From the NCBI GenBank assembly GCA_025916675.1, contig CP098402.1:987205-1051204 (forward strand): 64,000 nucleotides of DNA. Reading direction: 5' to 3'. The notes beneath the pieces were generated by a model. That model made no database searches. It was not told the origin of the DNA and worked only from the letters and a program-made list of their open reading frames with translations. Made by a program: the position numbers and the translations under genes. Origin of the DNA: Phycisphaera sp. (lineage in GTDB: Bacteria > Planctomycetota > Phycisphaerae > Phycisphaerales > UBA1924). Positions 24,563-55,200 of this stretch are shown here, one piece after another. Positions within the stretch are counted from its first letter, which is position 1; the number at the start of each line of letters is the position of its first letter.

Positions 24563-26812
24563 TCAATCGCGTGGGCCGGCACTTCCAAAGTATGCCCCAA
24601 GCGGCACCATGTCTTCCTGCGCGGGGCGCCCCATCACGTCGGCGGGGGCGAGCAGATCGGACGCGGGGAACCGGGCCCAGACGATGCTGGAAGGACGCGG
24701 CTGGTAGTTCATCCGGCCGGGGCTCACGAACACCTGCTCGCGAGAGTCGCCACCATGGATGTGTCCGACGGTGATATTGACACCGGCAGGGATCTTGGCC
24801 CCAAAGGAGTCGCCATCGATGATGTGGAGGTTGCGGAACCTGCCGTTTTCGGGCATGTCGTCGCCCGAGAGCTTCCAGAAGATGCTGTTGGTGACCGAGA
24901 TGTTCTTGAGGGTGAGCTTGCCATCCGTGTCCTGGCGGTGGGCGTCGAAGCGGAAGGTCTGATCGGGAAGCTGGAGGCCCGAGAGGACCAGGTGGTTGAC
25001 ATCGAGGTTCCACATGCTCGAAGCGACGCTGGCTTCGTCCTTGGAGATGTGGACGTTGACGATCGCGATGTCCTCGAGTTCCTGCTCGCCGCCGCGGATG
25101 GGGTTCATCAGGAAGCCAAGGAGCGGGAACTGGTGCACGCGAAGGCCGTAGATCATGCGGTTCTCGCGGTCCAAATCGTCGCGCCAGAACCAGTGGAAGA
25201 TGTCGGCGTGGGTGCCGTCTGGGTGGCGTGTGAAGTCACGGATATCGGCGTTGAGCACCATCGTGTCCGAGCCGAAGGGCGTGTCGGAGAAGCCGGTAGC
25301 CTGAACATTGCGAACGAAAGTCGAAGAGCGGAAAGGCGAGCTGATGTCGGTAGCAACAAGGTCGGTGCCATAGATGCCCGCCCAATCGCTGCTGCCCGAG
25401 GCGATGCCACCACCCTCGAATCGACTGCTGCCCGCGATGGCCGAGTTGCTCAGCCAGAAGTACGTGTCCATCGTGCGGAAGGTGCGTGGGCCGCCGCCGC
25501 CGCTGAGAGTGATGTTGTCACCGCGAAGAAGACGCGTCCGCATGCCGGCCGGCTCGTTGTCGATGAAGACGACCTGATCACGGTCGACGCCCGGCGCGGC
25601 CGTGACCGTGGCCCAACGCTCACTCGTTGCCACGTTGTGGGGGTGGGAAGCACCCTCCCACACATACTCGCCCGGCATCAAGTAGCACACCGCACCATCG
25701 GAGCTGCCGTGATCGGCGGTGACTTGGGCCAGGGCGCGAGTGGCGCTGCGGAAGGGGTTGTCGCGCGAGCCATCGCCCTCGCTATCGCTGCCGTTCTCGG
25801 CGTCGGCGTACACCTCGTGCTTGGGCAGGCTGTCGCCCGAGTTCGCGTTGAGGAACATCGAATGGACACCGTTGCGGAAGTGGACCGAGCCGCCGTTGTA
25901 GCCATCGATCTCGCCGCCAAGAACCCGGGTCTCACCCGCGTATTTGGGGAAGACACGGGCCCGAACCTCGACGAGCCCGTCCTCGAACGCCGCGGCGTCG
26001 AGCGTGGCGGTGAACTCCCACACGTTGGTGCGAGGGTTAAGCTTCATCTCGTGCACGGGCGTCCACGGACCGCCGTTGGCGCTGAACTCAACACGATCGA
26101 TGCCATTCATGTGGAATGCCACGACACCGATGTGGAAGACCCCGTCGAAGTCCTGGTAGGGCACCACGTCCCAGCGGGCGATGGCCTGGGCGTCGTAGCC
26201 GGGAAGGCTGGGGTCGCCCACGGCCGGGGGCTGGGGCGTGGCACTGCCAAAGCCCGAGCCGCCGCGGAGCACGGGGAAGTCACCCGGCTCGCCGCCTCCG
26301 CCCGAGCCGCCCTTGGGATCTTTCGAGAGCGTCCCCCCCGTGGGGCTGGGGCCTGCCAGAAGACCGGGGGTTGGCTTGACAACGGTTCCACCGCCTGGGT
26401 TTGGAACGATCGGGCCGCCACTGCGGATCGTAATACGACCGAGCGTCGGGTGGCTGAGGACGGCGGTCCCGCCAGGCGTGGAGCCAGGGCCGGCCCCCAT
26501 GTCCCGAATAAGTCGGATCTGGGCGGCCCGGATCTCGCGGAGTTCTTCCTCGGTGTACCGCCTCGCATTGGCGGCGTTACTCACCGGACGAAACCCGGAG
26601 GTGAACGCATACCGGATCTGACCGGGAAGGAAGTATTGGGGACGACTGTCTGGTGCCGCGTTCACCCGCCGTTCGTGGGCTTCGCGCAGACTCGTATTGC
26701 GATTCTCGGGCTTTGGTTCCTTCTCGTCCTGGGCAGCCAGGAGGCTGGTCGGAAGTGCGAAGATTGAAGCGGCCATCAAAAGGGCCATAGCAGAGCGGCG
26801 GCGATCAGGCAT
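24563..26812 (-). CDS. Secreted parallel beta-helix protein, first gene of the polysaccharide operon
   Basis: 749 residues. Signal peptide (SAMALLMAASIFALPTSLLAAQ), a proline/glycine-rich linker near residues 130-200, then a sandwich-like segment. The fold signature VYADAENGSDSEGDGSRDNPF, which opens many pectate-lyase-like helices, comes near residue 350, and the rest is repetitive beta-strand sequence. No catalytic set recognised; in this position a polysaccharide lyase or epimerase acting on the exported polymer is plausible. It lacks the calcium-loop tag seen elsewhere. GGAGG lies 8 bp before ATG 26812. It is preceded by a 404-bp gap that should hold the operon promoter. Confidence 0.72.
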   Translation of the reverse strand: MPDRRRSAMALLMAASIFALPTSLLAAQDEKEPKPENRNTSLREAHERRVNAAPDSRPQYFLPGQIRYAFTSGFRPVSNAANARRYTEEELREIRAAQIRLIRDMGAGPGSTPGGTAVLSHPTLGRITIRSGGPIVPNPGGGTVVKPTPGLLAGPSPTGGTLSKDPKGGSGGGGEPGDFPVLRGGSGFGSATPQPPAVGDPSLPGYDAQAIARWDVVPYQDFDGVFHIGVVAFHMNGIDRVEFSANGGPWTPVHEMKLNPRTNVWEFTATLDAAAFEDGLVEVRARVFPKYAGETRVLGGEIDGYNGGSVHFRNGVHSMFLNANSGDSLPKHEVYADAENGSDSEGDGSRDNPFRSATRALAQVTADHGSSDGAVCYLMPGEYVWEGASHPHNVATSERWATVTAAPGVDRDQVVFIDNEPAGMRTRLLRGDNITLSGGGGPRTFRTMDTYFWLSNSAIAGSSRFEGGGIASGSSDWAGIYGTDLVATDISSPFRSSTFVRNVQATGFSDTPFGSDTMVLNADIRDFTRHPDGTHADIFHWFWRDDLDRENRMIYGLRVHQFPLLGFLMNPIRGGEQELEDIAIVNVHISKDEASVASSMWNLDVNHLVLSGLQLPDQTFRFDAHRQDTDGKLTLKNISVTNSIFWKLSGDDMPENGRFRNLHIIDGDSFGAKIPAGVNITVGHIHGGDSREQVFVSPGRMNYQPRPSSIVWARFPASDLLAPADVMGRPAQEDMVPLGAYFGSAGPRD

Positions 26813-45245: not shown

Positions 45246-45429
45246 TTGTGGGAGCGGTATGGCAATCCGCGTGCCAGGCCCCGTCGCGGCTCGTGCACGG
45301 TGCGGCCGCCACGGACGATGGCCACGGGTGCCATGCGATCGGCCAGGGGTGGCCCGTACCAGCCCGCATCGGGCCAGATGGTTCGGGATCGGGGTCGTTC
45401 CGGGCCGCAAGGTCCGGAGAACACCCCGG

Positions 45430-45576
45430 CGATGCTCCATCACGCAAGCGCGATGGAGCATCACGCATGGGTGATGGAGTGTTGCGGGCCGGTGATGGAG
45501 CATCGCCCATGCCCCACAGTGAGTTGCGGACATGCGATGGAGCATCGCGCGACCGCGACGGGACCTCACGGATCAC
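45430..45576 (+). repeat. 21-bp tandem array A (seven units)
   Basis: Seven 21-bp units start at 45430, 45451, 45472, 45493, 45514, 45535 and 45556. A representative core is CGATGGAGCATCACGCATGG. Units differ by several bases but never in length; faint units continue on both sides. A degenerate form of the box shared with arrays B and C lies at 45268-45293, and ACCAGCCCGC lies at 45358-45367. The 476-bp gap 45170-45645 holds this array, the G-rich tract and no credible gene. Confidence 0.75.
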
Positions 45577-45645
45577 GCGCGGAGCCGTTGCGGCCCCCCT
45601 GGCTCGCCGATCGGGCCGAATGGCCCGGGCGGGGGCTTCTCGGAC

Positions 45646-51278: not shown

Positions 51279-51561
51279 GGGCGCGCTCGTGCGCCAAGGG
51301 CTCTTCACGCCGAAGCATCCGCCGAGCGAGTCTTCGAGCGAAAGCGCATGCGAGAGGCGCGGCCGCTGAGCGGCCCGGCCGTGAGGCCGCAAGCGAGCGA
51401 AGCGAGCGCTCAAAAGCAACCCGTTGGGCGAGCGCTGGCGCAGCCGTCTTCGGCTCCGCCGAGCGGTGAAGAACCAAGAACGCCCGAGAGCACCCCCACG
51501 AACGACCGCGACCGCCCGTCCCCCCGCGTTCTCGGTCCCGAACAACCTTGCTCCCACACGC

Positions 51562-51792
51562 ACACTCTCGGACCTCCACCGGACACCTTTGCGGCCCGTC
51601 CCGAAATGTTTGCAGGGAATCCCAAGATGTTTGCGGCCCCTCCGGACATGTCCGCGGGCCCTCAGAAGACGTGTGCGGCCACTCTGGGATCGCGTGCGGG
51701 GCCACGCACCACGCTCGCGGGCCACCCGGACATTGGTGCGGATCCGTTGGATACGCACTCGAGCGTTCCAGCGATGGGCGCGGGCCAGCACG
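51562..51792 (-). repeat. 21-bp tandem array B (about eleven units)
   Basis: Units begin every 21 bp from 51562 (51583, 51604, 51625, and so on), with one or two degraded units beyond 51792. On the plus strand a unit core is AGATGTTTGCGGCCCCTCCGG or ACATGTCCGCGGGCCCTCAG. Read on the minus strand, the core (GGGATTCCCTGCAAACATTT) resembles that of arrays A and C, so its orientation is minus. The shared box lies at 51997-52024. The 949-bp gap 51189-52137 otherwise holds hairpins and simple repeats but no credible gene. Confidence 0.75.
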
Positions 51793-51996
51793 CGGTGCCG
51801 CAGAGCCCGCGCGATGCGGCGTTCGCGTGTCGATTTCGGGCCTCTCAGGCCGCACATCGTGCATCGGGCCGCCCGCACGGGCCGAGAAGCCCGGCCCCGC
51901 TCGATCGGGAAGCCCGCCGCCGCCGGTCCGATCATCGCGCGGCCATGCACCGTGATCGGACGAGAGGGAAGGGCCCGACCCGAACAGCCGCCCCGC

Positions 51997-52024
51997 CCGA
52001 GCCGTGCTGCGTGAGCACGCGACC
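51997..52024 (-). repeat. Array-associated box F, copy B
   Basis: On the minus strand this 28-base box begins GGTCGCGTGCTCACGCAG and ends CACGGCTCGG. Copy C at 54777-54804 differs at three positions only, all transitions. CGTGCT and AGCACG form a 6-bp stem. In its array's orientation it lies about 200 bp before array B. Confidence 0.65.
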
Positions 52025-52037
52025 TTTTCTGTTATAG

Positions 52038-52120
52038 GGCATTGGGCATTGGGCAATAGGCAGTGGGTCTAAGGTGGGCGGTCTTGATCCGTTCCGCCCC
52101 ATTGCCCAATGCCCAATGCC
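52038..52120. repeat. Perfect 20-bp inverted repeat after the FG-GAP-like gene
   Basis: GGCATTGGGCATTGGGCAAT (52038-52057) and its exact complement at 52101-52120 flank a 43-bp loop; each arm is built from a GGGCATT(G) simple repeat. On the minus strand the structure starts 17 bp after the TAA at 52138-52140, so it may stop or protect that transcript. Confidence 0.65.
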
Positions 52121-52137
52121 TAGTGCCTACTGCCTTC

Positions 52138-53466
52138 TTACGAACACCCCGCATCGAACGCCGTTTGGAACGCCAGGAAGTCGAAGATGGTCAGCTCGCC
52201 GTCACCGTCGAAGTCGGCGATGGGGTCGCCGGCCTGGAAGAGGTTGAGGAAGGTGAGGAAGTCGAAGATGGTGAGGGCGCCGTCGGCGTCAAGGTCTGGC
52301 GCGCACAGCAGGCAGGCGAGGTCGTACACCTCGGCCATGCCCTGGTCTTCGCCGATGTGCAAGAACTCGCTGCAGCCGATGGCGAGCTGGCCACCGCCGA
52401 GGTCGACCGATTCGGCATAGTCAATACCGCCGACGGTCGAGACGATCCGTGCGGCGTGCCGCCACTGCCCGTCGGCTTCGCGTTGGAACAGGTGGGCCGC
52501 GCCGACGCCGGTGGTCCCTACCTCGCCCCTCGCGCCGATGGCCAGCAGATCGCCCTGGAGCGAGACGTCCCAGCCGAAGCGCGCGCCGTCCTGGGGCTGG
52601 GGTGCCAGCAACTCCTGGTGCAGCACCCATTGATCGCCATCGTAGTGGTAGACGTACGCCGCGCCGATCGAGCGATCGGCCACCCAGCGGCGGGCGATGG
52701 CGCCCACCACGAGCGTGTCGCCCTCGATCGCCAACGAGAAACCGAAGTTTGGGCCGTAATCGACGGGGCCGGGCTCGAGCTTTTGCACGAGTTCGGGTGA
52801 GCCGGCGTTATCCCAGCGGTACACATACACGGCACCATGTTCGTTCGGTATGCCGCGTGTATCTTCACCCGGTGCGCCAACAAGGATGAACTCATCGTTG
52901 ACGACAATCGCGTTACCGAAATAGACTCTCCCTGTTACGCCTTCACTCGGCCTCAGTTCGCCTACTTGCTGCCACTGGCCCGTGATCTGAGTAAAGGCAA
53001 GAACAGTCGTACCCCAGTTCGCTACCGCGGCCTTTTGGCCAAAGATGGCAACGGTCTCCCCCCACGGCGATCGTGAAGCGATATCTGGTGACCCCAAGCG
53101 GCCCGACTCGATCCAGCGTGCCCCATCGAAGTCGTAGATCACAGCCCCGCCATAGCGTTCCACACCCAGGCTGCCCGTGATGAACTTGTTACCGTCAAGC
53201 TCAATGTCTCCACCGCTCGCCCCGGGGACCGTGTGTGTAAACACCCAGTTGCCCCCGCCGTCACGTTCATAGGCGTAGATCTTGTCGGCGAACCGATCGT
53301 TCACCAACAGGTGCTCATCGCTGATGGCCACATCCTGCCCGAACTCAAGCAGCCTGGGCTCGAAATCCGGGAAGAATCGTTGAGGCTCGCACTGGGCGTG
53401 AGTCGTGGGCGTCTGGACGGTGGCGAGGGCGAAGCCGGCTAGGGCAGACAAAGTGGCGTGTATCAT
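52138..53466 (-). CDS. Secreted FG-GAP-like protein with C-terminal double calcium-loop tag
   Basis: 442 residues. Signal peptide LSALAGFALATVQTPTTHAQ. Blades of the FG-GAP_2 type occur: FGNAIVVNDEFILVGAPGED, FGFSLAIEGDTLVVGAIARR and FGWDVSLQGDLLAIGARGEV, with HGAVYVYRWDN-like strands. The last ~57 residues are the tag: CAPDLDADGALTIFDFLTF, then DFDGDGELTIFDFLAF, ending AFDAGCS. ATG 53466; an inverted repeat follows its stop. Presumably surface exposed. Confidence 0.86.
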   Translation of the reverse strand: MIHATLSALAGFALATVQTPTTHAQCEPQRFFPDFEPRLLEFGQDVAISDEHLLVNDRFADKIYAYERDGGGNWVFTHTVPGASGGDIELDGNKFITGSLGVERYGGAVIYDFDGARWIESGRLGSPDIASRSPWGETVAIFGQKAAVANWGTTVLAFTQITGQWQQVGELRPSEGVTGRVYFGNAIVVNDEFILVGAPGEDTRGIPNEHGAVYVYRWDNAGSPELVQKLEPGPVDYGPNFGFSLAIEGDTLVVGAIARRWVADRSIGAAYVYHYDGDQWVLHQELLAPQPQDGARFGWDVSLQGDLLAIGARGEVGTTGVGAAHLFQREADGQWRHAARIVSTVGGIDYAESVDLGGGQLAIGCSEFLHIGEDQGMAEVYDLACLLCAPDLDADGALTIFDFLTFLNLFQAGDPIADFDGDGELTIFDFLAFQTAFDAGCS

Positions 53467-53495
53467 ACTGCTATTGTGCGCGATTCCGGGGCCTG

Positions 53496-54658
53496 ATGCA
53501 AGGGCGACGACCTGCTCGTGCTGCGCCCCGCGACCTGCCGCCCGCTCCCGCGATCATCGAGTACGAGCCCGACCCGTACATCCGCCAGTACGCCGTCCAG
53601 GAGCCATTCCTGTACGAGGAGGTCGAGAACGCGCAATTATTCGTGTCCATCTCGGACGTTTCGAGCCTGAAACAAGACCGGATCCGGGTCGCGGGGCTCT
53701 GGTTCGATGACAGCGACCCAGACCCGCTCGAACACCGTTGGCGTTATACCCAGCACATCGAGAATAACGCGGCCAAGAATTACCCCCTTCTCGACGTCGG
53801 CGTCGGCGCCCCATTGGAGTTCCACTACGGCGGAACATATCAAGTTTCGACGCCCGACAGCAGCTTCAATCCAAGGGCACCCGGGGGCTTTATCTCTTCG
53901 GCGGTGCTCGCCAAGGACGCCGAGGGTGATGTCCGGCTCTTCGTCACGCACTACGCGCGGCCTGCCGGAATGAGCGGGGCCGAGGACCGGGTCGTCGTGC
54001 AGTGGTACGTTATCGATGCGAACCTCGACAACTTCCGCGTGATCCAGAACCCGCCCGTGTGGAATCCGACGATCATCACGGGTGGCCGCATCGAGTCCGA
54101 TGGTACGGACGATGGCGATTGCTATTATCCGTCCATCGGCGTCACCCGGCAGGGCGTGGCGTACATCGAGTACACGTTCTCGAATGGTGATACGTGGCCC
54201 GAGATCCGCCGCGTCAAGCTGACAAGCGACTACTCCGCCGTCGATACCAGCGTGCTCCTGAAAGCGGGACCGATCAATCGGAGTTATGAGGACGGTGTGA
54301 CAACACCAAGTGGTGATCCGAACGACGCGTGGGCCGACTTCTCCGACATGCAACACGATCCGTTCCTGTGCAAGCTCTGGTCGGTCCATACGCTGGTGCA
54401 TGAGCTCACCAACGAGCCCGATCCGACCTCGCCGGTCGACATGGACAAGCGCGACATCTGGCTTTTCGAGAACCGCACACGCCCTTCTGCTTCAGTCCCG
54501 ACATGAACGGCAACAGCATGGTCGAGTCCGGCGATGCCCTGCTGTTCAACAACTACTACGCGACGCAGGACGACCGCGCCGACGCCGACGCGAACGGTGA
54601 TGTGGACATCAACGACATGGCGATCTTCCTAGACGCCTACACCGCCGGCGTGCCCTAA
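53496..54658 (+). pseudogene. Frameshifted secreted-type protein with a dockerin of a different family
   Basis: The frame from 53496 encodes a beta-rich protein (IIEYEPDPYIRQYAVQEPF and so on) but has no signal peptide. A hydrophobic VACIILLLCAIPG lies just upstream in another frame (GTG 53453). At the 3' end the frame stops at 54506, while a neighbouring frame from about 54482 continues FCFSPDMNGNSMVESGDAL, then ADADANGDVDINDMAIFLDA and ends TAGVP at 54658. This is a two-loop dockerin without the LFDFLAFQ core. A break near 54475-54490, and probably a second near the start, suggest a decaying gene. Confidence 0.68.
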
Positions 54659-54691
54659 CGAGCGAGCCCGAGAATCCTGCAAGCACCCCCA

Positions 54692-54717
54692 CGGGCCCGC
54701 CAACGCGGGCCCGTTTT
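54692..54717 (+). terminator. Rho-independent terminator
   Basis: CGGGCCCGC (54692-54700), loop CAAC, GCGGGCCCG (54705-54713), then TTTT. A 9-bp perfect GC stem followed by a short U-run, 33 bp after the stop of the frameshifted gene. Confidence 0.85.
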
Positions 54718-54776
54718 CATTCCCCCTTCGAGCCCTTCGCGTTCGATCTCTTCTCGCGTGTTGGCCTGCGATCGGT

Positions 54777-54804
54777 GGCCGCGTGCTTACGCAGCGCGGC
54801 TCGG
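54777..54804 (+). repeat. Array-associated box F, copy C
   Basis: GGCCGCGTGCTTACGCAG followed by CGCGGCTCGG. 25 of 28 bases match copy B on the opposite strand at 51997-52024. It lies 165 bp before array C, with ACCAGCCCGC (54871-54880) between them; array A has the same decamer at the same distance from its degenerate box (65 versus 66 bp). Confidence 0.65.
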
Positions 54805-54969
54805 ACGGAGGGATCGCCCCCACGGAGTGGGCCCGCGCTGGCGTTTGGACAGAACCCTGCCACGGAGTGGACCAGCCCGCGTTCTCGGCCCATGGATAAC
54901 CCAAACACCAGGATTCCCAGCGTCGAAGGCCGGTTTTCTCAGAATCCGGACGTTGGGAGATCGATGAAA

Positions 54970-55200
54970 AACGATCCGAATTGTGTTGGGAACGATTCCC
55001 AACACAATTTGGATCGTTCCCAACACATGGGGGATCGCTCCACACACATGGAAAACGGTTCCCGACACATGGGGGATCGTTCCGAGCACATGCGGAACCG
55101 CCCCCCTTCGATGAGGAATCGCTGCCACACGTTCTGGAATGGCCGCCACGGCCTGGGGGGCCGCTGGCCTTCGATGGCAGGGGCCGGGCGCTGGCAGGGA
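54970..55200 (+). repeat. 21-bp tandem array C (eleven units)
   Basis: Eleven consecutive 21-bp units from 54970 to 55200 with no length variation. The clearest (units 3, 5, 6) have cores GATCGTTCCCAACACATGGG, AACGGTTCCCGACACATGGG and GATCGTTCCGAGCACATGCG; units become more divergent toward 55200. The 742-bp gap 54659-55400 holds a terminator, box F and this array; its last 200 bp are GC-rich with a CCTGGAAGGCACC direct repeat (about 55288 and 55377) and no credible gene before atpG. Confidence 0.8.

Follow-up and report, generated by a model that had tools for sequence, protein, structure and literature searches.

Repeats in iteron-like and centromere-like arrays, such as those at plasmid origins and parC/parS-type sites, lie about two helical turns apart, are often dyads, and bind a dimer or a filament. 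In clustered regularly interspaced short palindromic repeats (CRISPR), a leader stands at one end of the repeat array, and unique spacers lie between the repeats. According to the accessible part of one report, genes for REP-associated tyrosine transposases (RAYT) are bracketed by two inverted repetitive extragenic palindromic (REP) sequences (PMC2817692), and the accessible part of another describes REPs tagged by GTAG/CGTC, with Planctomycetes among the hosts (PMC3733652). Non-coding deletions of freshwater Planctomycetota often fall in intergenic tandem repeats, for which the accessible part of the source gives no period or leader (PMC9426551). Here, we describe three arrays of 21-bp units (A, B, and C) and a conserved box in a 64,000-nucleotide stretch (the window, bases 987205-1051204) of the single-contig 3.62 Mb genome of Phycisphaera sp. 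(the own genome). Its nearest named atpG records point to a planctomycete of Phycisphaeraceae type. Our tentative reading, to which we give slightly less than an even chance, is that two separate repeat families meet in the window, one a REP-like box and the other dyad arrays with DNA sites for a predicted dimeric protein. The arrays are a separate, apparently undescribed family of non-coding tandem repeats, present both in this bacterium and in relatives of it. A literature search found no paper on 21-bp planctomycete arrays, with most subscription journals outside its reach.

The three arrays named by the sequence-only reading of the window are real 21-bp arrays, with period-21 scores of 0.58-0.63. 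A locus was called when its period-21 score was at least 0.5 and at least 0.10 above that of any competing period; the finder scores gap-free, so that indel-free loci are preferred. We sampled 864 kb of the own genome, consisting of the window and of two coarse grids with 40 stretches in total, each 20 kb long, and found 16 period-21 loci, including the three of the window and four second-grid loci known beforehand (L007, L156, L002, and L160). The first grid alone gave three period-21 arrays in 400 kb, two of them called coding by a crude gene caller. No locus with a period of 19, 20, 22, or 23 was present in the 864 kb. The other periods were 12 (17 loci), 15 (10), 27 (8), and 24 (2), with one locus each for 16, 18, and 30, and most of the multiple-of-three periods are taken as probable low-complexity coding sequence. 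The arrays are about 8 to 25 units long, and the units are contiguous, with no spacers between them. Unit sequences differ from locus to locus, with similarity in some pairs only, most of all in L007 and L156. Heptad-coding genes, in which 21 bp would be seven codons, were considered and rejected, as 15 arrays lack the codon-phase GC pattern of genes (~0.66/0.5/0.85). The gene caller labelled arrays L026 and L031 as coding, and neither is gene-like in GC by codon phase; L031 begins directly after a stop codon.

Arrays were also found in related genomes. The comparison set consists of six congeners (G001-G006), in which a blastn search with array C (locus L008) found no copy. When 100 kb per genome was scanned, G004 had four arrays, G005 had one, G002 had a weak one, and genome G018 had one with a close competing period. 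Among 109 atpG loci, with some genomes represented twice, there was one array, L148, from an uncultured Phycisphaerales. This more distant array (1492-1746 of CALMPG010000049.1) has 21-bp units without the leader described below, and its dyad p is 0.04 to 0.08. Several further features of the arrays were noted. All 16 sampled arrays of the own genome lie in about 584 kb of the sample, and the 14 stretches (280 kb) at 2.44-3.61 Mb have none; this array-free region does carry boxes. Units alternate with a 42-bp higher order in L187 (18284-18559) and L169 (18234-18468), and those of L187 are near reverse complements. At many array loci, a dockerin-like repeat (FDFLAFQNxF) often forms the end of the adjoining gene, and this repeat seems to account for much of the cross-matching from locus to locus. 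Pooled over 59 arrays, the A/T content along the unit shows a surplus of power at 5.25 bp (z 4.0).

The 21-bp unit is dyad-symmetric in most arrays, with p<0.05 against column shuffles in 43 of 59. The dyads recur every 10.5 bp, and the units every two helical turns. The two halves of the dyad also covary from unit to unit. At the main centre, 3506 of 6964 dyad pairs match, compared with 3298 ± 27 expected from column make-up (z 7.7), and at the second centre 3370 of 6946 match, compared with 3281 ± 27 (z 3.3); the split between the centres was made on the data, and the two z values are therefore best read jointly. Complementarity at the main centre is 0.54 at separation 1 and 0.61 at separation 3. 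Insertions and deletions are scarce inside the arrays. A gapped alignment of the 59 arrays with 63-nt flanks gave 242 indels in total, of which 5, in 3 arrays, fall in array interiors (at least 42 nt inside), versus 2606 differences from consensus. Planted indels were recovered in all 59 arrays. A gap in a long array would appear as two neighbouring arrays, and no such pair was seen. By period, A, B, and C are leaderless members of this family, and A and C are also members by symmetry.

A conserved leader precedes a subset of the arrays. Six array loci, five in the own genome and one in G005, have about 35-65 bp in common just before the first unit, with a consensus of about GTCCGGATAnnAAAACCGCCCTGGCGCCCCC, and a leader of ~30 bp was found in five of the six congeners. 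Leader model R1, which uses sequence only, gave 46 matches with an expectation value (E) below 1e-3 across the own genome and the congeners, none of them in G002. A period-21 array follows within 250 nt downstream at 22 of the 26 matches kept as loci, and at 17 of 21 without the five model seeds; the loci that fail are L212, L220 (narrowly), L226, and L227. None of the 25 loci with upstream sequence has an array upstream of the leader. With model R2, built from 27 leaders, all nine own-genome matches (E<1e-3) are followed by an array, marginally so at L241. For held-out R2 matches in the own genome and G004, the count is 10 of 13 (again with L241 marginal), the exceptions being L263 and L266, with no array downstream, and L264, with an array on the other side. 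Outside the genus, 2 of 59 sampled family genomes gave a leader match under stricter filters, with no 21-bp array downstream, and both matches resemble plain terminator hairpins. Upstream of one of the two, L254, the period-21 score reaches 0.57.

The leader and the dyads keep a common register. The dyad centre stands at one register to the CCGCCC of the leader in 26 of 33 arrays that have a leader; where the dyads are significant, this holds for 23 of 25. For unrelated arrays, such a coincidence is expected in 1 of 21, with fewer independent cases if the arrays are of common descent. No leader relics above shuffles were detected at A, B, or C. A minus-strand stretch at ~54910-54952, CGTCCGGATTCTGAGAAAACCGGCC, is leader-like with a small insertion and is directed away from array C, and without gaps it scores at the level of shuffles. 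At the position of array A, a leader array of G004 lies directly before pheS, and only the pheS side is clearly orthologous.

Units turn over at leader loci. At one orthologous locus (L210 of the own genome and L205 of G001), the leader is 78% identical and the next gene 88%, and the units are unlike. L217 of the own genome and L220 of G001 have their unit in common, in about 11 and about 4 copies, respectively, as counted by eye. Further common positions were found by tblastx (L224/L212, L031/L227, and L211/L218); at L212 and L227, no clear array accompanies the leader. By eye, array centres look more uniform than ends. According to the crude gene caller, genes point at the element upstream in 12 of 17 cases and downstream in 15 of 23 among 25 leader loci, and half of the 16 loci that have a gene on each side (8) are convergent.

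The box is a REP-like extragenic palindrome of a RAYT-like system. As the sequence-only reading had stated, the 28 bases at 54777-54804 are identical to the complement of 51997-52024 at 25 positions, and all three mismatches are transitions. Box model R3 was built from 31 sequences (alignment A3), both window copies included, and matches were counted at E<=0.01. The own genome has at least 65 matches, beyond chance, G001 and G002 at least 23 each, G005 at least 16, G003 at least 4, and G004 at least 2; these counts are lower bounds because only 150 candidates per genome were scored (150 of 8334 in the own genome). In G006, no box was found among the 150 of 6362 candidates scored. A blastn search with a 144-nt query around box C gave 52 own-genome matches, many to the box and others to the stretch after it. 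In alignment A3, GGTCCGCGTGCTCACGC(A)CGCGGCTCGGA is nearly invariant. The 31 copies form a hairpin with a 7-bp stem in which 92.2% of cells are paired. There is one covarying pair, a number reached by 153 of 500 shuffles, with AU for UA in 3 of 31 copies and 9 of 31 unpaired at that pair, and the three covarying cells are equalled by 1 of 500 shuffles. Inverted box pairs about 50 bp apart occur several times in the own genome, for example at 3038245(-)/3038298(+), 3295062(-)/3295120(+), and 3450471(-)/3450519(+). A weak third match in the window lies at 26295-26337 (-), apparently within a gene (E 9.5e-4). Adjoining box B, at 52038-52127, is an imperfect inverted repeat of GGGCATT-type heptamers, with 23-nt arms that are 96% complementary, and similar text occurs at further loci.

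Two Y1-transposase (PF01797) genes, scoring over the cut-off of Pfam Y1_Tnp, were found in the own genome. One, an open reading frame at ~1762.1-1762.7 kb, is bracketed by inverted boxes at 1762107-1762143(-) and 1762697-1762733(+), and its reading frame extends into the downstream box. The other is bracketed by inverted copies of a different palindrome, CCCCTCGC..GCGAGGGG. This second locus (L161 1333-1800 and 2084-2346, ~97 kb in the own genome) has a 21-bp array ~280 bp downstream. Both proteins are below the cut-off of the NCBIfam RAYT model NF047646 (28.2 and 32.3 bits versus 80). Among the congeners, only G003 has a PF01797 match, though G001, G002, and G005 are box-rich. None of the 31 copies in alignment A3 has a GTAG head, and GACG, the complement of a CGTC head, follows CTCG in only part of them. 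Lacking the GTAG head, the box is classed as REP-like and not as a GTAG REP. A RAYT-like Y1 transposase may mobilise and spread the box, and the box adds a RAYT-like/REP-like pair for Phycisphaerae.

Table 1 Features of the window, with coordinates counted from its first base.
Feature	Coordinates	Strand	Evidence
Array C, 21-bp dyad-symmetric units, upstream of atpG	54956..55172		period-21 score 0.63 vs 0.35 next-best; dyad p 0.007
Array B, 21-bp units, between two convergent genes	51546..51765		score 0.60 vs 0.34; dyad p 0.29, not significant
Array A, 21-bp dyad-symmetric units	45414..45586		score 0.58 vs 0.44; dyad reached by 0/300 shuffles
Box of C, REP-like palindrome, long (AGC) subtype	54774..54811	+	R3 E 1e-13; alignment A3, hairpin
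Box of B, REP-like palindrome, long (AGC) subtype	51990..52027	-	R3 E 3.1e-11
Claimed degenerate box of A, not supported	45267..45293	+	R3 E 0.32 in 64 kb
CCACGGAGTG(G) motif, two copies in the interval from box C to array C	54820..54869	+	direct reading

The sequence-only reading had taken box, decamer, and array together for one mobile or regulatory element. Box and arrays are indeed each dispersed, non-coding, and more numerous than by chance, and the box-to-array distances it gave are roughly right (152 bp for C and 232 bp for B, to the detected array edge). An array follows 4 of the 7 boxes of the long subtype, which have a 3-nt middle; for three of these boxes the distance is 108-232 bp. 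This partial link is biased because the loci were mostly gathered with a long-subtype query. In addition, L007 and L156 have box (worn in L156), leader, and unit in common, as if copied together. However, G006 has strong arrays (L208, L213, and L218) and no box was found there, and G004 has at least 2 boxes and many arrays. Among 25 short-middle boxes, one precedes an array, two more are preceded by one, and 22 have none nearby (left out of these subtype counts are the worn L156 box and those pattern matches that lack CTCGG). In the own-genome sample, a loose box pattern matched 16 times; 4 of these matches have an array no more than 250 bp away, and one of the 4 carries 3 substitutions. The degenerate box claimed before array A is not significant. 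The decamer ACCAGCCCGC, said to be shared by A and C, occurs twice in the window versus 0.43 expected, a count reached in 9 of 100 shuffles. The box-array intervals of B, L002, L007, L013, and L156 lack this decamer, and these loci do not share it. Unlinked copies, which had been named beforehand as the refuting result, were obtained. The one-element proposal therefore fails in general, and we consider it very improbable. A composite sub-family is possible; the order box - CACGGAGTGG - leader - array is present at L002 and L007 and, with the worn box, at L156; the CCACGGAGTG(G) motif also follows the box at L002 and L007. The arrays do look like phased protein-binding sites, as had been suggested.

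In our two-family reading, the observed period, symmetry, covariation, indel scarcity, leader, register, and turnover would reflect a dimeric DNA-binding protein. This protein may nucleate at a half-site in the leader or at the array itself, and may fill successive dyads along one helix face, two turns per unit. Spacing and symmetry would then be selected more than exact sequence, and the arrays would gain and lose whole units via slippage or recombination. Candidate effects are nucleoid structure, insulation between genes, or regulation. With more reserve, and well short of an even chance, we suggest a new class of chromosomal element, in which the leader sets the register, spacing and symmetry are selected, units turn over, and a putative dimer or filament protein reads the array. 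In the own genome and in G004, such a class would number some ten to fifteen copies with a leader, beside which stand more leaderless arrays with this period; a leaderless array of similar kind would belong to it in at least one Phycisphaerales genome farther away. Several observations weigh against a protein-read array. Dyad symmetry is not significant in 16 of 59 arrays, B included. In the own 16-locus sample, a leader is found at 4 arrays, and 12, with A, B, and C among them, have no recognisable one; two of the ten own-genome R1 matches at E<1e-3 (59767 and 1326133) have no array. Upstream of atpG, the position of array C, none of the five congeners whose sequence covers this region has an array (in G001, the contig stops 197 bp short of atpG). 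The gap-free finder favours indel-free loci, and no binding protein was identified, with no search for a cognate protein made. Phased A/T curvature was tried and rejected: there is no 10.5-bp A/T harmonic (z -1.1) and hence no intrinsic curvature. Finally, register and period could be plain inheritance from a common ancestor.

Such inheritance is part of the main rival explanation, in which the arrays are selfish or neutral minisatellites without host function, with leader and period inherited. We regard this as doubtful, though a serious contender. Palindromic units could form hairpins during replication, leading to slippage with whole-unit gain or loss, and template-switch repair could keep the units palindromic. 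The whole-unit copy-number difference between L217 and L220 of G001, the more uniform array centres, and the convergent gene settings, where insertion would disturb little, all fit this explanation, as do planctomycete intergenic tandem repeats as a source of structural variants, ascribed to slippage in the accessible part of the report (PMC9426551). A neutral satellite with hairpin slippage explains most of the features, but not the scarcity of interior indels (5 versus 2606 differences); nor does it sit well with the absence of any locus drifted to 20 or 22 bp and with a leader conserved where units have turned over. A second rival takes the arrays for the template of an RNA structured as successive 21-nt hairpins; reading would run towards the leader, which would serve as terminator. 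Unit-level covariation fits this rival. One form of the leader is a full hairpin (AAACCGCCCT..AGGGCGGTTT), and the strand antisense to the leader has more G.U-type mismatches (410 versus 324). Counted by arrays, however, this bias is 20 against 12, with 3 tied, and is not significant, the six leader sequences fold no better than shuffles (z -1.6 to +0.5), and complementarity extends to separations 1 and 3, too short for the loop of an RNA hairpin. At the Rfam gathering score, the window gave two tRNAs only, and L234, L208, L213, L260, L217, and L019 gave none. With dyads as close as 1-3 nt, no leader fold, and no clear strand bias, a structured RNA, also part of the earlier proposal, is unlikely.

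The box resembles the system of REPs, bacterial interspersed mosaic elements (BIMEs), and REP doublets forming hairpins (REPINs) with RAYT of the IS200/IS605 superfamily, in that it is a GC-rich imperfect palindrome of ~30 bp in tens of copies, with inverted pairs ~50 bp apart and a Y1-transposase gene within inverted copies. It differs in having no GTAG head and CGTC in part of the copies only, and the proteins score under the NCBIfam RAYT cut-off. The arrays weigh more than the box in significance. Unlike units combined with one period, dyads, few indels, and, in a subset, a common register suggest recognition by spacing and symmetry and not by sequence, for which we know of no bacterial example. 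As in bacterial intergenic minisatellites (variable-number tandem repeats), the arrays are non-coding tandem units with whole-unit copy-number difference and unit turnover; unlike these, they keep one period at unlike units, are dyad-symmetric and nearly free of indels, and in a subset have a conserved leader at a fixed register. They resemble CRISPR in the leader at one end, whereas they have no spacers, their units diverge, and by eye the centre is uniform, not the leader end. With iteron-like and centromere-like arrays they have in common the dyads and the spacing of about two helical turns, but they occur at many chromosomal loci, with unit sequences that differ.

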